Shown: piece after piece, positions 6,314-22,783 of the stretch
How positions within the stretch are numbered: the first letter of the stretch is position 1
Layout of the letters: every line of letters starts with the position of its first letter
NCBI RefSeq assembly: GCF_023347255.1
Contig: NZ_CP094466.1
Location: 2,728,001-2,792,000, forward strand
Reading direction: 5' to 3'
Origin: Faecalibacterium sp. I4-3-84
GTDB taxonomy: Bacteria; Bacillota; Clostridia; Oscillospirales; Ruminococcaceae
Length of the DNA: 64,000 nt
Made by a program: the position numbers and the translations under genes
The notes under the pieces: model-generated
The model's input: the letters and a program-made list of their open reading frames with translations, nothing else
Told to the model about the DNA's origin: nothing
The model's database searches: none

Positions 6314-6493
6314 GTTTGTTTCAAACCTCCGCATAACAGCAATGCCGCGCCGGGGCAGGCAGATGCCCGGCCCCGGCGCGGCACCGAGAAGAAAAAAAGA
6401 AAACCGATTGTGTGGAACGCACACGGTGCCGTCAGAGCAAAACCTGTTCTGGTCTTATTCTACCGGGCGCGTGCGGTTTTGGCAAGTAAAAGA

Positions 6494-8809
6494 TCAGGCC
6501 TTTGCCTGTGCGATGCAGTCGGCCACAGCCTCCTGCACAGCCTTGACCGAGAAGCTCAGGGTGGAAGAGGTGATGGCATCCACGCTGGTGTCGCCCTGGC
6601 TGTCCACCACGGCAGCGGCCATGCTGCTGCGCAGGTCGTCCTTCATCAGGTCACCATTGCCGGAAGATGTGATCTTGCAGTCGGTGATGGCGTCCTCGCT
6701 GAAGGTCATGGTGACGGTCACGGTGCTGTAGCCGGAGTTCTTGGAAGCGGTGTAGGTGCCGGCATAGTACTGGCCGTTAGTGGTGCGCTCATCAGAGCCG
6801 TTCTCACCGCCGCCGATACCGTTGTCCAGATCGTTCTTGACGTACTCGGCAGCCAGGTAACCGGTCACGAAAGCGCTGCCGCAGCTGTTGCCTGCGGTGG
6901 GGGTGTGGTACTGCACACCGTAGCGCTGGCCGCAGCAGTTGCCGACAGCGTACAGGCCGGGGATGGGAGCCTTGGCACCGGTCAGGACGCGGTACTCACC
7001 ATCGGTGCAGACTGCAGCGTGCTGGCACAGGCCGCCGGAGGGGTTGCCGCCGGTGACGGAGGAAGCTGCGAAGAACGGAGGATCCTGGATCTTGAAGTGC
7101 ATCATGGATGCGTCTGCGCCCCAGTCGGAGTCGTAACCGGCATCGCACATCTCGTTCCAGTGCTTGACCTCGTCCAGGAAGCCCTGCTTTGCGTCGCCCT
7201 CATAGCCCATGATGTCGGCCAGCTCTTCCAGCGTGTCGGCAGCATACAGGGTGGTGGGGTCGTTGCCGTAGCGGGCAAAGGCCTGCACGGAGAAGCCGTC
7301 GGGGCCGGTCTTGTAGTTGGCCATATCCTTGCGGACCTTCTCCAGCATGTAGTCGTTGCTGCGGTCCATGGCCTGATGGTCGTATGCCTGATACTCGCAG
7401 TAAGCATCCCAGTTGGAGTCGGTGACGCAGACCATCTTCTGGCCTTCCGGCATCATATCCAGGTAGCCCACGGAGCCGTGGCGGGTGATGGTCTCGTTGA
7501 AGAAACGCTTGCCGTCATTGCCGAAGATGGGCCAGATGCCGCCGAAGGGGAAGGACGGGCGGCTGTTGATGCCGGCTGCCTGGCCTGCACGGGGGCCGGC
7601 CTCCATGGTAGCGCCTGCCCACAGCATCATGCGGATGCCGGAACCGTCACGGCCCATGGAAGAAATGTTGTTCACGTCGGTGCGGTCCTTGCCGTAGGAC
7701 CATGCCAGGTTGCGCAGGGTGTCGCACAGATCCAGACGCATATCCGGGTTGCCGCCGAAGTCGCCGGCTGCCACGATGACAGCATCGGCATTGACCTGGA
7801 AGTACTTGCCGTCGATATCGGTGAAGATCGCGCCGGTGACCTTGCCGTTCTCGTGCACGAGGGTCAGACCCTGTGCGCCGTAGATGTACTCACAGCCCTT
7901 CTCCACAGCCTTCTGCTGCAGCAGACGGACGGTGTACGGCCACATATTGTTGTTGGTGTTGGTCTCGGTGCCGGTATCACGCCACTGGGTCATGCCCACA
8001 TAGTAGTAGCTGTGGCTGCAGGGGTTCTGGAAGTGCTTGTTGCCCTTGTAGTTCACAGCGTGTGCGTACTTTGCAACGTAGTCGGGGTCCAGCTCAGCCA
8101 GCATCCAGTCCAGTGCCTCGCCGGAACGGGTGGCGTAATCCTTGACGATCTTCTGGTTGGCGTGGCCCAGAGCCTTGACCATGTACTCGGTGAAGATGTC
8201 CATGGGGTCGTACTTCTCGGCACCCTTGTTCAGGAAGAACTTGGAGTTGTAGGTGGTCAGGTCGCAGGCATAGTTGTCGTACTCTTCCCAGGTCTGCACT
8301 TCGCAGCAGATGGTGTTCAGGCCCTCTTCTGCGCAGCGCAGGGCGGCGGCAGTACCGGCCTGACCGGCACCGATGACCAGAACTTCGCAGTCCTTGGTGT
8401 ACTCGACCTTGTCGGCCAGCTGGGGCTCATCGCCCAGCCAGGCGGGCTTGTTGTTCATGAACTGCTCTTCCGGAATGTTCAGAGGATCGACCATACCGAC
8501 CATCATGGAGCCCATGATGTCGCCGTTGCCCTTCTGCTCAATGTACTCTTCCGGGGTCTCGGGAGCCTTGGCGTCCGGGTTGGAGCGGCGGTTGGCCTGC
8601 GAGTAGCTGGTGGCAAAGATGTCGTCCCAGGTGATGGCGGAAGCAGCGGCTGCGGGCTGCTCGGAGGCAGCGGCAGAGCTTGCCACGGAGGAAGCGGCGG
8701 CGCTGCTGGCTGCGTTGTTGGAGCAGCCGGACAGTGCGCCTGCAGCGGCAGCGCCCAGAGCGCTGAGAGCCGATGCACGGATGAAGTTTCTGCGCGAGAT
8801 CTTGTTCAT
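6494..8809 (-). CDS. Tat-exported lipoprotein FAD/FMN reductase (fumarate/urocanate reductase family)
   Basis: This 771-aa flavoprotein begins with SRRNFIRAS, a Tat motif, and then a lipobox-like LSGC, so it is probably exported folded and lipid-anchored. An Ala/Ser-rich linker follows (~30-60). The FAD domain starts at EVLVIGAGQAGTAAA (~residue 143), and the succinate-dehydrogenase/fumarate-reductase fold ends near NCCGQRYGVQYHTPTAGNSCGSA (~655). A C-terminal FMN-binding domain carries DAITSSTLS (~745-753), the site type where ApbE attaches FMN covalently through Thr. This class reduces small organic acceptors such as fumarate, urocanate or cinnamate-type enoates in anaerobic respiration of gut bacteria. 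The substrate cannot be read from sequence. Divergent from a LysR gene that probably controls it. Confidence 0.88.
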   Translation of the reverse strand: MNKISRRNFIRASALSALGAAAAGALSGCSNNAASSAAASSVASSAAASEQPAAAASAITWDDIFATSYSQANRRSNPDAKAPETPEEYIEQKGNGDIMGSMMVGMVDPLNIPEEQFMNNKPAWLGDEPQLADKVEYTKDCEVLVIGAGQAGTAAALRCAEEGLNTICCEVQTWEEYDNYACDLTTYNSKFFLNKGAEKYDPMDIFTEYMVKALGHANQKIVKDYATRSGEALDWMLAELDPDYVAKYAHAVNYKGNKHFQNPCSHSYYYVGMTQWRDTGTETNTNNNMWPYTVRLLQQKAVEKGCEYIYGAQGLTLVHENGKVTGAIFTDIDGKYFQVNADAVIVAAGDFGGNPDMRLDLCDTLRNLAWSYGKDRTDVNNISSMGRDGSGIRMMLWAGATMEAGPRAGQAAGINSRPSFPFGGIWPIFGNDGKRFFNETITRHGSVGYLDMMPEGQKMVCVTDSNWDAYCEYQAYDHQAMDRSNDYMLEKVRKDMANYKTGPDGFSVQAFARYGNDPTTLYAADTLEELADIMGYEGDAKQGFLDEVKHWNEMCDAGYDSDWGADASMMHFKIQDPPFFAASSVTGGNPSGGLCQHAAVCTDGEYRVLTGAKAPIPGLYAVGNCCGQRYGVQYHTPTAGNSCGSAFVTGYLAAEYVKNDLDNGIGGGENGSDERTTNGQYYAGTYTASKNSGYSTVTVTMTFSEDAITDCKITSSGNGDLMKDDLRSSMAAAVVDSQGDTSVDAITSSTLSFSVKAVQEAVADCIAQAKA

Positions 8810-11925: not shown

Positions 11926-12528
11926 ATGTTCACGAAGTATGATGTCTACACCACAGTGCAGTCCATGTACTGCTACCCGGATACGGATGTTCTGATCAAC
12001 AAGCTGGACATCCGTGACAAAGCAGAACTTAAACAGGCCGAAGAAGAATTTACTGCAGTCAAGCAGATGGCTCTGTTGCAGGAGCCAATCAAGGGACGGT
12101 TTACCAAAACTCACCTGTTTCGGATTCATCGCTTCCTTTTTGAAGATGTGTATCCGTTTGCAGGGCACATCCGTAAGGAACAGATCAGCAAGGGTGACAC
12201 GATGTTCTACCCTCCAGACCTGATTGACCGAGAATTGGAGCGCGTGTTCAAGAATATTCGCTCCAAAAAGCTGCTTGCCGAGCGTAATGAAGAAAAGCAG
12301 ATTCAAAATCTGTCGCAGACGATGGCGGAACTGAACATTATCCATCCTTTCCGTGAGGGAAATGGCCGCAGCACCCGTGAATTGATTCGCTGCATGGCAT
12401 TAGAATATGGTCTGCATATTAACTGGGGCAACACTGACCGAGAAACTTTGATCAACGCTGCAATTGCTGCCGTAGATGATGATATGGCATTCTGTGATAT
12501 TCTTAGGCAGTGTATGGAATACCTATGA
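11926..12528 (+). CDS. Fic-family AMP-transferase toxin
   Basis: This 200-aa protein carries the complete catalytic motif HPFREGNGRSTRE (~residues 144-156), matching HPFx(D/E)GN(G/K)R: His as base, and the GN-GR loop for the ATP phosphates. Upstream it has the usual all-helical Fic core with RIHRFLFEDVYPFAGHIRKE (~residues 67-86). Family members transfer AMP to target proteins such as topoisomerases and stop growth. With the adjacent VbhA-like inhibitor this forms a class I Fic toxin-antitoxin module. It resides on the remnant integrative element, where such modules often stabilise the element; that role is inferred. Confidence 0.9.
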   Translation: MFTKYDVYTTVQSMYCYPDTDVLINKLDIRDKAELKQAEEEFTAVKQMALLQEPIKGRFTKTHLFRIHRFLFEDVYPFAGHIRKEQISKGDTMFYPPDLIDRELERVFKNIRSKKLLAERNEEKQIQNLSQTMAELNIIHPFREGNGRSTRELIRCMALEYGLHINWGNTDRETLINAAIAAVDDDMAFCDILRQCMEYL

Positions 12529-12549: not shown

Positions 12550-13170
12550 ATGGCGTTAAAAGACATTAAATTTGAGAAGTATGGCGATATTTATGAGTTG
12601 AGCCGTCCTCAATGGGGAAATCACAAAGCTCGAATAAGTGCTTATCCCGGATTACTCGATAAGGTTTTACGCCATACTTGGACGTACACAAAGGGAAAGC
12701 ATCCATATCTAACAACAACCATTAAAAGTGATAATGGAGAGAAGCATACTGTTTCATTGCATAGATTTGTTCTAAATCACCTCTATGGGACACACAATGT
12801 AGCAAAAATGCTTGAACCTGACAACATCATTGAGCATCTTGACAATGATGGACTGAATTGCTCCTATGACAATCTTCATATTCTTTCAGCAGATTACAAC
12901 AAAGCAAAAGCTTTTACGATTGATAAAGAACCCCGTCCATCATTTGCAGTCATTCAAACTTTTGTGACAGGTGTTTACTATTCGCACAAAAAGAAACGCT
13001 ATCAAGTTCAAATTGTTTTTAATCGAGATGTCATCTGGCATCATGTGGAGAAGCGGAGTGTTCCAGTTGAACGAATACATCTTATATACTATGATTTTCA
13101 GCAACTATTTGTGGATTGGCTGAATCTCATGAAGTTTAGAAAATTAAATAAGTTTGATTTATCTGTATGA
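12550..13170 (+). CDS. HNH-like endonuclease domain protein, AT-rich
   Basis: This 206-aa protein contains VSLHRFVLNHLYG (~residues 72-84) and IIEHLDNDGLNCSYDNLHIL (~residues 94-113), which match the beta-beta-alpha HNH signature of small homing-type nucleases (xxHxDxDxLNNxxxNLxxxT). A basic C-terminal region (GVYYSHKKKRYQVQI onward) may bind DNA. The gene is clearly more AT-rich than both neighbours, which points to a separate acquisition. It starts 21 bases after fic and its end overlaps the next gene by 4 bases. It might be a free-standing homing endonuclease inserted into the element; this is not proven. Confidence 0.6.
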   Translation: MALKDIKFEKYGDIYELSRPQWGNHKARISAYPGLLDKVLRHTWTYTKGKHPYLTTTIKSDNGEKHTVSLHRFVLNHLYGTHNVAKMLEPDNIIEHLDNDGLNCSYDNLHILSADYNKAKAFTIDKEPRPSFAVIQTFVTGVYYSHKKKRYQVQIVFNRDVIWHHVEKRSVPVERIHLIYYDFQQLFVDWLNLMKFRKLNKFDLSV

Positions 13171-13547
13171 AGAAAAACTTTAAGCTGACCAAGGACGCTT
13201 ATGCTGCCCAGCACAAGGAGGAACTGGACACCTTTAATAAAGCTGTCCGCACCCTGATGAAGCTGAACGGCAGCACAGCGGTGGATTTTTCGGCATTGGA
13301 TGCCGAATTTTCTGCGCTGCAATCCGGCAGCGCAGAGCTGCGCAGCCAGCTTGAAACTTTGCAACCTGACCTGACTGCGCTGAAAAATGTGCGCAAGTAT
13401 ATCGACCTTGTGCTGAATAAGCAGCAGTTTTCCGCACCGGGCGGCAAGACCCCGGAAAAGGAATCCGTGCTGAAGAAGCTGCACGAAGCCAAAGCCACCG
13501 CCGCCCCGAAGAAACCGGAGCAGCAGAAGAGCACACCGGAATTATAA
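13167..13547 (+). CDS. Relaxase/mobilization C-terminal-like fragment
   Basis: This 126-aa protein begins MKKNFKLTKDAYAAQHKEEL and continues with NKAVRTLMK, then a coiled coil ending LKNVRKYIDLVLN (~residues 75-87) and a Lys/Pro-rich tail. This arrangement resembles the C-terminal segment of MobA/relaxase proteins of clostridial ICEs. No relaxase HUH domain is present, so it is either a truncated relaxase tail or a small accessory protein. The start ATG overlaps the stop of the HNH gene (ATGA), and the next gene follows after 12 bases with a strong AGGAGG. GC content returns to the element's norm here, so the AT-rich gene probably cut into a longer reading frame. Confidence 0.45.
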   Translation: MKKNFKLTKDAYAAQHKEELDTFNKAVRTLMKLNGSTAVDFSALDAEFSALQSGSAELRSQLETLQPDLTALKNVRKYIDLVLNKQQFSAPGGKTPEKESVLKKLHEAKATAAPKKPEQQKSTPEL

Positions 13548-13559
13548 GGAGGAAGGAAC

Positions 13560-14591
13560 ATGACCTACACGCAAGACCAGATTGACCGTGCAAACGCCGC
13601 CAATCTGGAAGATTTTCTCCGGGCACAGGGCGAAACGCTGGTGCGCAGCGGAAAAGAATACCGCTGGAAAGCCCACGACAGCCTGACCGTGTGCGGAAAC
13701 AAATGGTTCCGGCACAGCCAGAGCAAGGGCGGCTATCCGGTCGATTTTGTGATGGAATTTTACGGCAAGTCCTTCCCCGAAGCGGTGCAGATGCTGACCG
13801 GAGAGCCGGGCGAAGTCCAGCCGGAGGCTGACCCCGCCCCCTCTCCTGCGTTTCGCTTGCCGCTGCGGAACGTCACCAACGCCAACATCCTGAACTATCT
13901 GACACAGGAGCGGAAACTCAGTCCCTCGCTGGTGAACTTCTTCATCGCTGCCGGAGATATTTACGAGGACGCCGCCCACCACAACGTGGTCTTTGTGGGG
14001 CGAGATGCAGATGGACACCCACGCTACGCAAGCAGCCGTGGCATCCATGAGAAGTTCCGGCAAGATGCAGCCGGTGCAGAAAAGGCATTTGGCTTTGCTC
14101 ATCGTGGCACCGACAAACAGTTGCTGGTCTTTGAAGCCCCCATCGACCTGCTGTCCTTCATTGAGCTGTTTCCGAAAAACTGGCAGCAGCACAATTATCT
14201 GTCGCTGGGCGGGGTGTCGGGCAAGGCGCTGCGGCAGTTTCTCTCGGAACGCCCGGACGTGGAGCGGGTGTTCCTCTGTCTGGATGCCGACAAAGCCGGA
14301 GAGAATGCCTGCAAGCGACTGGCAGCACTGCTGCCGGACACCGTGAGCGTGACCCGCATCCAGCCCTGCATGAAGGATTGGAACGATGTTCTGGTGCACC
14401 GGGCAGAGATTCCAAACCGCAATTATTTTAAGAGCATGCAGAAAATAAAACGCCGGGAAGTTGACTCAAATTGTCAATGCCTCCCGGCTATTATCTTGCA
14501 GATTAGTATAGTTAGAATCATGGTATATATTTCATTCCCCATTGGGAAATGGCATAAAAGACCGGCAACAGCTCCCGTCCTTTCTCGGTGA
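13560..14591 (+). CDS. DUF3991/toprim primase-like protein, 3' end replaced
   Basis: The first ~290 of 343 residues match the DUF3991-plus-toprim proteins of ICEs: an N-terminal domain with RHSQSKGGYPVDFVMEFYG (~residues 57-75), a middle domain from LNYLTQERKLS (~115), and a toprim core with FLCLDADKAGENACKRLA (~236-253) and MKDWNDVL (~272-279). Such proteins are thought to prime or process DNA during element transfer. The last ~45 residues have no resemblance to the family and are encoded by the terminator and the tail of the opposite HxlR gene. The natural C-terminus was therefore removed when the downstream cassette arrived at about 14.44 kb. Confidence 0.8.
   Translation: MTYTQDQIDRANAANLEDFLRAQGETLVRSGKEYRWKAHDSLTVCGNKWFRHSQSKGGYPVDFVMEFYGKSFPEAVQMLTGEPGEVQPEADPAPSPAFRLPLRNVTNANILNYLTQERKLSPSLVNFFIAAGDIYEDAAHHNVVFVGRDADGHPRYASSRGIHEKFRQDAAGAEKAFGFAHRGTDKQLLVFEAPIDLLSFIELFPKNWQQHNYLSLGGVSGKALRQFLSERPDVERVFLCLDADKAGENACKRLAALLPDTVSVTRIQPCMKDWNDVLVHRAEIPNRNYFKSMQKIKRREVDSNCQCLPAIILQISIVRIMVYISFPIGKWHKRPATAPVLSR
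14448..14488 (-). terminator. Terminator of the HxlR gene
   Basis: On the minus strand TCCCGGC/GCCGGGA (14482-14488 / 14452-14458) with an inner TTGAC/GTCAA stem is followed by GTTTTATTTT. It lies inside the 3' end of the opposing primase-like frame and so marks the left edge of the cargo cassette. Confidence 0.75.
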
Positions 14592-14871
14592 GGGAGTATT
14601 CCACCCGTAGGGGCATTTCATTATATTGGATGCGCTGGATCAATTCATCCGCTTCCAGCTCCTTCAGGGCGTTGGTCAGGGCTGTATTGGTAATGGGTTT
14701 GAGAACTTTTTTCAGTTCCCCAAACCGCATGGGACACTTGATGCACAGTTCATAGAGAATTTGGAGTTTCCATTTGCCCTGCAGCATTTGAACTACCGGC
14801 GTGACCGGGCAGTTTCCCTCGCCGGTTAGAATGACACTGCTAACCTTTTCTTTGAATTCTTCATAAGTCAT
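14518..14871 (-). CDS. HxlR-family winged-helix regulator
   Basis: This 117-aa protein has the HxlR signature CPVTPVVQMLQGKWKLQILYEL (~residues 21-42) with a leading Cys, then CPMRFGELKKVLKPITNTALTNALKELEADELI, a winged helix with the recognition helix in the ALTNALKELE part, and a wing ending VEYSLTEKGREL. The start MTYEEF (14871) follows a GAGGAAAG site; earlier in-frame codons lie in the promoter region. HxlR proteins often sense redox or reactive electrophiles through this Cys. It is divergent from the flavin reductase of the radical-SAM cassette and probably its local regulator. Confidence 0.9.
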   Translation of the reverse strand: MTYEEFKEKVSSVILTGEGNCPVTPVVQMLQGKWKLQILYELCIKCPMRFGELKKVLKPITNTALTNALKELEADELIQRIQYNEMPLRVEYSLTEKGRELLPVFYAISQWGMKYIP

Positions 14872-14935
14872 GATTGGATCTTTCCTCGTCTTTTGCAGTA
14901 TATTTTTTGATACCAGGTACAAATAATTTGCGTAC

Positions 14936-14977
14936 TTGAACAAAAATTACTAGCAGGTATAATAAATATATCACTAG
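14936..14977 (+). promoter_or_regulatory. Promoter and palindromic operator of the radical-SAM cassette
   Basis: TTGAAC (14936-14941), a 16-bp spacer, TATAAT (14958-14963). The arms ACTAG (14949-14953) and CTAGT (14973-14977) flank the -10 element symmetrically. This placement suits repression by the adjacent HxlR protein (inference). Confidence 0.6.
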
Positions 14978-15025
14978 TTAGCCGTGCAGTCAACGACTGA
15001 AATTTCTTAGAAAGGTCTGAATAAC

Positions 15026-15529
15026 ATGAAAGAACTGAACATTATGGAGGCTACTGTTCTGACCTCCCCCAATCCGCTGACACTGATCTGCTCTAAAAAG
15101 GAGGACGGTTCTACGAACCTGGCTCCCATTTGCTTTGTATCTTACCTCTCCTTCAACCCGCCCATGGTGGGTTTCGCCACTAGCAAACAGTCCCACACCG
15201 GTAAGCAGGTACGGGAGACTGACAAGGTGATTGTCACCGTTCCTGGCGAGAGTCTTGCCCAGACTGTGATGGCCTGCGGAGCGTCTACCGGTGCCAAGAC
15301 CGACAAGGTGGCCGCCAACAACATCGAGATGATGGCTGTGGAGGGCAGTGACATCCAGATTCCGGTGGATACTCGTCTGGCGATGGTGGCCACCCTGCAG
15401 CAGTCGGTGGAAGTTGGCGACCATATCCTGCACATCTGTCAGGTGGACAAGTTCCTGGGCGATGAGGACAAGAAGGGGCTGTATGCCTGGAACGGCTTCG
15501 GGAAAGTTGCGCCTGCGGTAGAAAGCTAA
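15026..15529 (+). CDS. Flavin reductase family protein (FMN-binding split barrel)
   Basis: This 167-aa protein begins MKELNIMEATVLTSPNPLTLICSKKEDG and continues NLAPICFVSYLSFNPPMVGFATS (~residues 33-55), the flavin-reductase-like split-barrel pattern (flavoredoxin type), with the S-NPPMVGF loop that contacts FMN. The family transfers electrons between NAD(P)H or ferredoxin-like donors and flavin. It is the first gene of the rightward cassette, controlled by a divergent HxlR gene, and is followed after 28 bases by the radical SAM pair. In this setting it may supply the electron that reduces the [4Fe-4S] clusters of the two radical SAM proteins; that is my inference. Confidence 0.85.
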   Translation: MKELNIMEATVLTSPNPLTLICSKKEDGSTNLAPICFVSYLSFNPPMVGFATSKQSHTGKQVRETDKVIVTVPGESLAQTVMACGASTGAKTDKVAANNIEMMAVEGSDIQIPVDTRLAMVATLQQSVEVGDHILHICQVDKFLGDEDKKGLYAWNGFGKVAPAVES

Positions 15530-15557
15530 ATCTTAAAACGGAAAGGAGGCGTTAGCG

Positions 15558-16247
15558 GTGGCTGTTTGTATTAAAGACTGTATTCAGAACATGAATCTGG
15601 TGATCGGCTGTACTATTGGTTGCAGCTACTGCTATGCCAGAAACAATGTCCACCGGTTTCACATGATCGATGACTTTGAAAAGCCGGAGTTTTTTCCCAA
15701 TAAGCTGCGGCTGATGGAGAAAAAACGCCCACAGAATTTTCTGCTCACCGGCATGAGCGATTTTTCCCACTGGAAGCCAGAGTGGCGGGAACAGATATTT
15801 GCCAAGATAACTGAAAATCCGCAGCACCAATATCTGTTTTTGACCAAGCGACCGGAGGATATTGTGTTTTCCACTACCCTAGAAAATGCTTGGTTTGGTG
15901 TAACTGTTACCCCCAGTAAAGAGAAAAACCGTATCCGGACTTTGCGGGAGCATATCCATGGCGGACACTATCATGTGACCTTTGAACCTATGTTTGATGA
16001 TGTTGGCATGGTGGACCTTACCGGAATTGAGTGGATCGTCATTGGGACTGAGACCGGACATAGGAAGGGCAAAGCCGTATCGAAACCGGAATGGGTGTGG
16101 AACCTGACACATCAGGCCCATGCGCTTGGCATCCCTGTATTCATGAAGGAAGATCTACTTCCTATCATGGGAGAAACACATATGGTACAAGAATTTCCCC
16201 CGGCTTTTTACCGGGTATTGGAGGAACAGAAGACATGGCGGAAGTGA
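15558..16247 (+). CDS. Radical SAM mobile pair protein A-like (DUF5131-type)
   Basis: This 229-aa protein has the radical SAM cluster motif CTIGCSYC (CxxxCxxC, ~residues 18-25) followed by YARNN. Downstream are FLTKRPEDI, WFGVTVTPSKEKNRI and WIVIGTETGHRKGK, which match the phage Gp37/Gp68 (DUF5131) group. It is small for a radical SAM enzyme and lacks any obvious auxiliary cluster. Its 3' end overlaps the start of the next gene by 13 bases, and the tight coupling suggests a complex. Such twin radical SAM proteins are annotated on mobile elements as 'radical SAM mobile pair' A and B, with no known reaction. I assign the pair by motif and layout. Confidence 0.8.
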   Translation: MAVCIKDCIQNMNLVIGCTIGCSYCYARNNVHRFHMIDDFEKPEFFPNKLRLMEKKRPQNFLLTGMSDFSHWKPEWREQIFAKITENPQHQYLFLTKRPEDIVFSTTLENAWFGVTVTPSKEKNRIRTLREHIHGGHYHVTFEPMFDDVGMVDLTGIEWIVIGTETGHRKGKAVSKPEWVWNLTHQAHALGIPVFMKEDLLPIMGETHMVQEFPPAFYRVLEEQKTWRK

Positions 16248-17152
16248 AAGATAGCAGCATTCTGATTCAGGATGTAGAAACCAAAAATATTATGACAAAA
16301 TCCACCCTGCCGGTGGGCGGCTATTCCGTCAATCCTTATGTGGGCTGTACCCATAGCTGCAAATACTGCTACGCCTCGTTTATGAAGCGATTTACCGGGC
16401 ACACCGAACCGTGGGGTACATTCCTGGATGTGAAACATTGGCCAGCAATCAAAAATCCGCAAAAGTACAAAGGGCAGCGCGTAGTCATCGGTTCAGTGAC
16501 CGATGGCTATCTGCCTCAGGAGGCTCAGTTTCAGAACACCCGAAAGCTTCTTGAACAGCTTCGGGGCAGTGAGGCAGAAATTCTCATCTGTACCAAGTCG
16601 GACTTGGTAATCCGTGACATCGACCTTCTGAAAAAATTGGGAAAGGTCACGGTCTCTTGGTCAATCAATACATTGGACGAAGGCTTTAAAAATGATATGG
16701 ACGATGCCGTCAGCATCAAGCGACGGCTGGAGGCCATGAAGCAGATCTATGATGCGGGCATTCGCACCGTCTGCTTTATTGCACCTGTCTTTCCGGGTAT
16801 CACGGATTTTGAGGCTATCTTCCATCAGGTCAGAAATCAATGCGACCTGGTATGGTTAGAAAATCTAAACCTGCGAGGCGGATTCAAAAAAGACATCATG
16901 GACTATATTTGTAAAAAATATCCTGACTTGGTTCCGCTGTACGACGCTATCTACAACAAGGGAGACAGAAGCTACTTCCGTGGTTTGGAGGATCAAGCGG
17001 AACGGCTGGCGAAAGAAAACAACTGTCCCTTCGTGGACAACGAGCTGCCCTACGGCCGGGCAGAGCCTGGGCACCCGGTCATTGTGGATTATTTTTACCA
17101 TGAGGAAGTGCGTGGCTCGGAAAACACCGGGCGACGCAACCCCAAAAAATAA
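16235..17152 (+). CDS. Radical SAM mobile pair protein B-like (SplB-related)
   Basis: This 305-aa protein has NPYVGCTHSCKYCYASFMKR (~residues 28-47) with the CxxxCxxC motif. It continues GTFLDVK, RVVIGSVTDGYLPQE and EILICTKSDLVIRDIDLL, a pattern shared with spore-photoproduct-lyase-like radical SAM proteins, and WSINTLDEGF. The start MAEVKD (16235) lies within the end of protein A and has GGAGGAACAGAAGAC upstream; an ORF reaching back to 16091 would overlap A by over 150 bases. SplB relatives abstract hydrogen from DNA lesions or nucleobases, so a nucleic-acid substrate is possible, but no reaction is known for this pair. A terminator follows. Confidence 0.82.
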   Translation: MAEVKDSSILIQDVETKNIMTKSTLPVGGYSVNPYVGCTHSCKYCYASFMKRFTGHTEPWGTFLDVKHWPAIKNPQKYKGQRVVIGSVTDGYLPQEAQFQNTRKLLEQLRGSEAEILICTKSDLVIRDIDLLKKLGKVTVSWSINTLDEGFKNDMDDAVSIKRRLEAMKQIYDAGIRTVCFIAPVFPGITDFEAIFHQVRNQCDLVWLENLNLRGGFKKDIMDYICKKYPDLVPLYDAIYNKGDRSYFRGLEDQAERLAKENNCPFVDNELPYGRAEPGHPVIVDYFYHEEVRGSENTGRRNPKK

Positions 17153-17162
17153 TTTGTGAAAT

Positions 17163-17209
17163 AAAAAGGTCCTGACATGGAGCTGTGCTTCAATATCAGA
17201 ACCTTTTTT
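17163..17209 (+). terminator. Terminator of the radical-SAM cassette
   Basis: AAAAAGGT-C-CTGA (17163-17175) pairs with TCAG-A-ACCTTTTT (17196-17209), ending in six Ts. It forms the right edge of the cargo cassette. Confidence 0.8.
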
Positions 17210-17382
17210 AGCACTGTTTAAGCATCAACATTGGCTCATTCAGTTTTCCACAAAATACCATCTTTCCTATATGGGTGCTGTCAGTGAACTGCTGAAGCAG
17301 CTGGATTCGCTGCATAAAACCTCCTTTCCGTCGGGGTTCCCGCTATCCGGGAGGCCCCCGTACAATCTCGGGGAACAGAAAA

Positions 17383-22640: not shown

Positions 22641-22643
22641 TTA

Positions 22644-22716
22644 TGGACTCGAAGGGAGTCGAACCCTCGACCTTTCGGATGCGAACCGAACGCTCTCCCA
22701 ACTGAGCTACGAGCCC
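22644..22716 (-). tRNA. tRNA-Ala (anticodon CGC)
   Basis: The complete cloverleaf reads on the minus strand: acceptor GGGCTCG/CGAGTCC with the G3-U70 pair that identifies tRNA-Ala, D stem GCTC/GAGC, anticodon stem TTCGG/CCGAA with loop TTCGCAT (anticodon CGC, codon GCG), variable loop AGGTC, T arm GAGGG-TTCGACT-CCCTT, discriminator A. The 3' CCA is not encoded. It sits at the right border of the mosaic element; 28 nt around its anticodon arm are identical to the tRNA remnant at 11.3 kb. Confidence 0.93.
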
Positions 22717-22783
22717 ACGAAAAAGCACCCAATTTCAAATGGGGGCAAATGAGCTATAACACCAGATCGGGAAAGCAACGCTT

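Follow-up and report, generated by a model that had tools for sequence, protein, structure and literature searches.

What kind of system is encoded by four compact genes, one for a divergent regulator, one for a flavin protein and two for short radical S-adenosylmethionine (SAM) proteins, and how did it come to lie against the broken end of a primase-type gene? The question is raised by a stretch of 64,000 nucleotides from Faecalibacterium sp. I4-3-84 (contig NZ_CP094466.1, positions 2,728,001 to 2,792,000), here called the window, in which the genes for an HxlR-type regulator (HxlR), a flavin-reductase/flavoredoxin-like protein (FLR) and two radical SAM proteins, A and B, form a unit spanning positions 14448-17209, between two strong hairpin terminators. 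Judged from the protein families, the unit is the HxlR/flavin-reductase branch of a named radical SAM mobile pair, and the version with its own HxlR and FLR seems to be new.

The four-gene unit and its protein families

The unit is made up of the following features, given in window coordinates.

14442-14497, minus strand: terminator-like hairpin behind HxlR (fold -24.9 kcal/mol, z -4.34, 0 of 200 shuffles as low)
14518-14871, minus strand: HxlR regulator, 117 amino acids, divergent (PF01638, 95.1 bits)
14930-14963, plus strand: promoter and putative operator of FLR-A-B, with GCGTACTTG over the -35 box TTGAAC (14936-14941), a spacer of 16 and the -10 box TATAAT (14958-14963)
15026-15529, plus strand: FLR, flavin-reductase/flavoredoxin-like protein, 167 amino acids (PF01613, 67.4 bits)
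15558-16247, plus strand: A, radical SAM mobile pair protein A of the DUF5131 family, 229 amino acids, GTG start (TIGR04471, 419.2 bits)
16235-17152, plus strand: B, radical SAM mobile pair protein B, 305 amino acids (TIGR04470, 595.5 bits)
17163-17208, plus strand: terminator-like hairpin with a T run behind B (fold -21.1 kcal/mol, z -4.02, 1 of 200 shuffles as low)

A first-pass annotation made from the letters alone had described a divergent HxlR gene, a flavin-reductase fold, twin CxxxCxxC radical SAM proteins and a 13-bp overlap, all of which are borne out by the family scores and motifs. HxlR and FLR lie above the Pfam gathering scores of 20.8 for PF01638 and 27 for PF01613, and the suspected identity of A and B as the mobile pair was confirmed by scores over the curated NCBIfam cut-offs of 355 bits (TIGR04471) and 410 bits (TIGR04470). 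The likeness of A to DUF5131 also stood (PF07505, 110.2 bits against a gathering score of 28.9), but the proposed likeness of B to the spore photoproduct lyase SplB needs correction: B scored 21 bits there, against a cut-off of 400, as compared to 134 and 107 bits with the PA0069 and Rv2578c families.

The CxxxCxxC motif is formed by Cys18, Cys22 and Cys25 in A and by Cys38, Cys42 and Cys45 in B. The motif cysteines of B are invariant in the 34 rows compared, and those of A are invariant or at least 90% conserved in 52 rows. B has further conserved cysteines, Cys180 being invariant and Cys119 and Cys203 at least 90% conserved; no conserved cysteine was found outside the motif in the 52 rows of A. 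The AlphaFold2 models have a mean predicted local distance difference test score of 95.7 for A and 83.9 for B, and a Foldseek search with the model of B gave 36 matches at E <= 0.001 and recovered radical SAM structures, including SuiB (E 4.1e-6), lipoyl synthase (E 4.4e-6), SkfB, MoaA and the PFL-activating enzyme. Radical SAM activity is thus predicted for A and B from motif and fold.

The genes for A and B overlap by exactly 13 bp (16235-16247), FLR and A are separated by 28 bp, and the 154 bp between HxlR and FLR hold the promoter. The HxlR protein has 117 amino acids when counted from its MTYEEF start, which is kept in the relatives. All four genes are maintained by purifying selection: the ratio of nonsynonymous to synonymous changes (dN/dS) was only 0.02-0.16 in 12 comparisons of the four genes with loci L034, L037 and L048, values that are rough given that 8 of the 12 dS estimates exceed 1 and several are saturated. 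The terminators claimed on both sides are supported by the RNA folds, each scored against 200 shuffles (z -4.34 and -4.02); a simple terminator scan lists other sites and neither of the two end hairpins.

Co-occurrence of A and B

To place the unit among its relatives, we used the best 80 of 386 relatives of A in the GTDB collection, picked by likeness to the window's group, a choice by which HxlR-type copies are over-represented. Gene presence and absence were counted by tblastn, because in greedy open-reading-frame maps some genes are masked by antisense frames. B lies next to A in 76 of the 80 loci, two of which are incomplete (L044 is truncated and L089 lies at a contig end), and is missing from four (L062, L064, L069 and L108). 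All 13 contigs of the viral collection with A or B carry both, some of these contigs being copies of one another. A gene for HxlR was identified in 32 loci (27 with FLR and five without) and a MarR-type regulator gene in 39 (37 without FLR and two with a 37-40% FLR match), while seven loci have another regulator or none (two with FLR) and the remaining two are cut by contig ends. The adjacency of A and B in genomes and viral contigs, and the joint travel of HxlR, promoter and genes, uphold the proposal of one inducible unit. That HxlR and FLR would recur in other copies was found to be correct for 27 HxlR-type loci but not for the MarR branch, from which HxlR with FLR is absent.

A broader sample consisted of 391 genomes drawn from the class, with a threshold of E <= 1e-60 for A and the family cut-off for B. 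A was identified in seven of them (six over the cut-off), with B adjoining in all seven, and B was identified in 14, including the seven with A. The expected co-occurrence holds for A with B (7/7), but the sample speaks in part against a strict pair (B in 14 and A in 7 of 391). Within the window's genus, A is present in 10 of 31 genomes, four of the HxlR type (window included) and six of the MarR type. Plasmid records gave 165 matches to A, of which 27 show 60-80% identity and 138 less than 60%.

The link between A and B is more than inherited gene order, because in L280 (2318-4826) an HxlR-like gene is divergent from the two genes in swapped order, B then A, with scores of 334 against 355 bits for A and 432.6 against 410 bits for B. 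The regulators also differ. The MarR protein of L002 lies over TIGR04472 (290.8 against 240 bits; the next best model, OhrR, gave 57 bits, below its cut-off), a family that is not among the matches of the window's HxlR. Rrf2 and cupin genes precede A in two viral contigs and one sampled genome, and B without A in a second sampled genome. In L045, a single contig carries HxlR-FLR and A-B about 4 kb apart, and in L071 a 19-residue stub of FLR is left in front of A. On a quick tree of 86 A+B rows, in which 35 of 80 inner branches have support below 80 and two long branches are joined, the regulators HxlR, MarR and Rrf2 require two changes, whereas five are needed for "HxlR without FLR", which would fit repeated loss of FLR.

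Many Bacteroidales plasmids, such as L284 3982-6295 (Bacteroides fragilis plasmid NZ_CP069564.1), have a metallo-beta-lactamase (MBL)-fold hydrolase gene ahead of A-B, and a gene for that fold is also found near HxlR-type copies in Bacillota (L034 and L035, 6001-6798), which makes it a recurrent partner in two phyla. On a Bacteroides plasmid, a metallo-hydrolase gene runs 4 bp into the start of A, and a split one is found there in L279.

Some single loci deserve mention. B in L051 and L073 is 70 and 73% like that of the window, as compared to 81-99% in the other HxlR-type loci with B, and A and B may here have been exchanged separately. A B-like gene with an interrupted frame is located at L152 6541-7432 (around 450.5 kb in the window's own genome), beside adenylation-enzyme-like and GNAT-like genes, and L183 has an uninterrupted B-like gene in a similar neighborhood (labels by reading in both).

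A conserved promoter between HxlR and the pair

Among proteins of known structure, HxlR is related to YdzF, HxlR and YybR, and FLR to an FMN-binding protein (1eje, E 1.3e-8) and flavoredoxin (3bnk, E 2.9e-7). HxlR also matches the redox regulators RrpA and RrpB below the cut-off. RrpA and RrpB are reported to be redox-stress regulators, with a flavin-dependent quinone reductase under the control of RrpA (PMC8765430).

We compared the intergenic stretch of 25 HxlR-type loci, the window and 24 others. The word CGTACTTG is invariant in all 25, with TATAAT 17-21 bases on, and the nine-base GCGTACTTG, which sits on the -35 box of the HxlR/FLR-A-B promoter, is found in 24; letter shuffles predict 0.07 such eight-base words per 25-locus set. 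Stretches of TACCA and GTCAA are also kept in the intergenic region, most of the spacer is not, and in the five of the 25 motif-bearing loci without FLR the same promoter leads to A. Kept footprints in related sequences can reflect descent. The case for the promoter site is made by its being kept between loci, not by scan statistics. Both the pairing of A with B and the conserved promoter are well supported, and so is the predicted control of A-B by HxlR.

The junctions and history of the unit

Three gene fragments flank the unit.

13167-13547, plus strand: C-terminal fragment of a mobilisation (relaxase-type) gene, which in L146 ends a longer frame (label from reading, not family search)
13560-14437, plus strand: 5' part of a DUF3991/Toprim-AAA_25 gene (PF13154, PF13155)
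17227-17313, plus strand: 87-bp remnant from an unrelated gene, at the right junction, 98% identical to part of a 439-amino-acid frame elsewhere in the same genome

The region 13160-14437 of the window aligns to six loci of relatives, in five genomes, at 89.5-91.6%, and in all six the DUF3991/Toprim homology ends at 14436-14437. Intact toprim frames of 621 amino acids are present in both relatives checked, L146 and L150, with a C-terminal AAA_25 domain in L146. The remainder of the toprim gene is absent from the window, and the rest of the genome gave no more than a 747-base match at 71% identity and one of 49 bases. The homology of the unit to L031, L032, L034 and L035 ends at 14431-14445 and at 17209-17243; because it ends at both edges, the unit has recombined as one piece. 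No recombinase gene is present within the unit, and the two short stretches compared at its ends share no word longer than 6 bp.

The Faecalibacterium relative G168 offers a different view of the left junction. Its unit starts 7,901 bp downstream of the toprim junction point, on the same strand, and its toprim frame is intact at 621 amino acids. In both G168 and G152 the unit comes straight after a block that contains Rrf2 and three SirTM-like frames, downstream of a same-strand toprim-helicase gene, and in G152 this SirTM block begins about 13 kb past the toprim match. Because both points are on one strand in G168, loss of the 7,901 bp between the toprim point and the left end of the unit would create the window's junction. 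We therefore think that the window probably represents an element of the G168/G152 type after deletion of the intervening DNA, with the primase junction as a deletion scar. The truncation of the toprim gene had been recognized correctly in the first-pass annotation, but the insertion of a cassette into the primase gene was rejected as the leading reading, the geometry in G168 being a better fit to deletion.

Mobilisable elements carry the unit as cargo, and it also occurs in a chromosomal island. Mobilisation-gene fragments adjoin it in the window, G168 and G152 have the same element type, and relatives of the pair are found on plasmids. A Fic-domain gene is located at 11926-12528, just 5' of the mobilisation-gene fragment, and a predicted tRNA-Ala(CGC) gene at 22643-22717, amid mobile-element genes.

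SirTM-like genes and other neighbors

A SirTM-like gene was identified within 9 kb in 15 of the 32 HxlR-type loci (15 of the 24 with at least 6 kb upstream) and in 5 of the 39 MarR-type loci. In the genome sample, 9 of the 14 genomes with B contain a SirTM-like gene, as compared to 57 of the 377 others (Fisher p 7e-5), and so do 4 of the 7 genomes with A (p 0.017), both values being uncorrected for kinship. The only two SirTM-like proteins compared match PDB 5a3a, a SIR2 family protein that we take to be the class M sirtuin of the SirTM operon study (E 3.8e-45 and 1.9e-39), and no Pfam family was matched by the six that were scanned. By reading, two of the three paralogs in L048 have QG at the position of the canonical sirtuin catalytic histidine, following the criterion of PMC4518038.

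Could the published chemistry of these sirtuins explain the linkage? In that study, SirTMs are linked to macrodomains, the extended operons add GcvH-L and LplA2, and the operons target lipoylated GcvH-L and are responsive to oxidative stress (PMC4518038). GCV_H gave no match in eight of nine genomes with the pair or B, and one match in the ninth, which just reaches the 22.2-bit cut-off and lies on a different contig from the pair. Because eight of the nine lack a match, the published chemistry does not carry over, and a lipoyl-GcvH link through SirTM was rejected as not supported.

Further neighbors of HxlR-type copies include Rrf2, a patatin-DUF6363 protein, a P-type ATPase and, by reading, an ArsR-like gene. 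Recurrent redox neighbors are FLR and SirTM-like genes and, as labeled by reading, NADPH-FMN-reductase-like genes, and nitroreductase-like genes beside two solitary B genes. A separate observation concerns L301 3909-8584 (around 2.450-2.455 Mb in the window's own genome), where a SirTM-like gene is split either side of a serine-recombinase gene (6351-8075), next to a macrodomain gene and to PNPOx-like and further HxlR-like genes (these two labeled by reading).

Possible functions of the pair

The families of HxlR, MarR and Rrf2 are known for redox or xenobiotic sensing. Because the regulator families, the flavin partners and the stress-type neighbors all point in this direction, we tentatively favor, as a hypothesis with a little less than an even chance of being right, that A and B are a redox- or electrophile-inducible radical SAM enzyme that repairs or detoxifies a target, with HxlR as sensor-repressor and FLR as an optional donor. 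HxlR would repress the operon until it is inactivated by an oxidant, an electrophile or a similar redox-active compound, whereupon A and B would be made in a fixed ratio. The two proteins may then act as paired SAM-cleaving [4Fe-4S] enzymes, B being the core catalyst and A a partner dependent on B, and could repair or detoxify a molecule damaged by redox reactions or electrophiles. FLR might serve as a low-potential electron donor or flavin recycler that can be replaced by the host.

Several observations weigh against this hypothesis. FLR is missing in 5 of the 32 HxlR-type and 37 of the 39 MarR-type loci, and the earlier idea that it is the obligatory partner and electron donor of both enzymes was rejected on these counts. 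B occurs without A (E <= 1e-60) in 7 of the 14 genomes, two of which (L180 and L181) have close B copies and four others copies with 56-61% identity in other settings. In L179 (4694-5979), A is cut to 127 amino acids with its middle lost, while MarR and B are intact, which may be a natural hint that B works without A; A thus seems to depend on B more than B on A, because all seven genomes with A have B and 7 of the 14 with B lack A. The fold search with the model of A gave weak TIM-barrel matches, none at E <= 0.001, the top TM-scores over the query among the matches listed being those of the radical SAM enzymes SuiB (0.47) and anSME (0.44), and a PDB sequence search with the profile of A gave no matches at E <= 1. 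The promoter pattern is matched once in the window's genome, as is a backwards control pattern, and the consensus promoter scan lists the site in a region with 3 promoters as compared to 4.2 in shuffles. Finally, the redox signal is deduced from the regulator families, and the SirTM neighborhood may be one ancestral linkage carried along instead of many independent ones.

If the SirTM linkage does have a functional meaning, the HxlR branch could be an undescribed redox-damage response of gut Clostridia, in which A-B would share a pathway with SirTM-like sirtuins in tandem, which would probably be ADP-ribosylating and make no use of lipoyl-GcvH, with HxlR and Rrf2 as joint regulators, and MarR-A-B would be a stripped-down form spread between phyla. 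We consider this elaboration doubtful. A mobile module for tolerance to xenobiotics or antibiotics, in which A and B modify a drug or its target and the drug is sensed by HxlR or MarR, is a possible but not a likely alternative. MarR and HxlR proteins are often drug sensors, MarR-A-B is near identical in a 34-row clade in many unrelated contexts, including Spirochaetota records, with Chloroflexota copies in another clade, and it is found on plasmids, once beside a chloramphenicol acetyltransferase gene. Yet this is the resistance neighbor in one of three plasmid regions examined, many HxlR-type copies reside in an island alongside SirTM-like, Rrf2 and metal-ATPase genes, and neither Cfr nor RlmN models are among the family matches of A or B.

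The weak similarity of B to spore photoproduct lyase (21.1 bits) would point instead to a pair for repair or modification of nucleic acids, as would the nearest outside relatives of A, which are DUF5131 proteins on phage contigs, some by SSB-like and helicase-like genes (labels by reading). With a nine-row profile, the match of B to the lyase structure 4fhc has an E-value of 0.29 and aligns little beyond profile residues 20-45, mainly the cysteine motif. The lyase has its catalytic hydrogen-donor cysteine about 50 residues past the motif; by reading, B has no cysteine there, a site that the 4fhc alignment does not reach. As B is far closer to the PA0069 and Rv2578c proteins and no DNA- or RNA-binding domain is among the family matches of A or B, we find a nucleic-acid substrate improbable. 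The same phage contigs could suggest a phage-defence or phage-derived counter-defence system, and A matches the PADLOC profiles PDC-M30B (E 2.5e-29) and PDC-M41B (E 5.6e-28). These profiles are however candidates that carry neither a stated function nor a curated cut-off; HxlR and FLR match no PADLOC profile, B matches the same two weakly, and no partner component was found next door. Small-molecule-type regulators and a flavin protein are moreover unusual for defence, and this explanation is quite improbable in our view. Maturation of ribosomally synthesized and post-translationally modified peptides was rejected as highly improbable. SuiB and SkfB are among the best fold matches of B, but these reflect shared radical SAM cores with a TM-score over the query of about 0.4, and the gaps of 154 bp (with the promoter) and 28 bp, followed by an overlap, leave little room for a precursor gene, although no systematic search for short reading frames was made. 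A SPASM-type auxiliary cluster needs more cysteines than Cys180, Cys119 and Cys203 of B.

The mobile pair matters because of its wide distribution, which takes in gut Clostridia, Bacteroidales plasmids and other hosts. A motif kept with HxlR, a dispensable FLR, copies of B alone and adjoining SirTM-like genes make the system testable: a short fragment carrying the promoter could serve to screen for the inducer, and the reaction can then be sought under that stress. The claim of an undescribed chemistry stands as far as we have searched, but NCBI already lists the pair as a named family. In the literature searched, which excludes preprints and most subscription papers, no paper was found that contains the pair family names, none that contains "DUF5131" and none with both "SirTM" and "radical SAM", and the available parts of PMC11983580 and PMC12445080 contain nothing on the radical SAM mobile pair.

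Comparison with known systems

A shares the DUF5131/phage Gp37-Gp68 family (PF07505) with many viral proteins, of which 73 relatives outside the pair family in the viral collection (L196-L268) are 27-49% identical to A. No B gene was found within up to 5 kb on either side of these, the only short motif matches being inside the DUF5131 gene. B has its nearest named relatives outside TIGR04470 in the PA0069 (NF033668, 134.1 bits) and Rv2578c (NF038135, 106.7 bits) families, yet remains far below their cut-offs of 360 and 430 bits. Spore photoproduct lyase (TIGR04070) has the radical SAM core and a short motif match in common with B, but with 21.1 bits against a cut-off of 400, B falls outside that family. 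The SirTM operons, as described in PMC4518038, resemble the unit in that SirTM-like genes adjoin many HxlR-type copies, and differ in that a GcvH partner was not found beside the pair. The closest known system is the mobile pair of TIGR04471, TIGR04470 and TIGR04472; A and B of the window score over its cut-offs, and their genes are adjacent and overlapping. The known pair has the TIGR04472 MarR regulator, whereas the branch in the window has HxlR and an added FLR, a conserved HxlR-type promoter and, in its relatives, a SirTM island.

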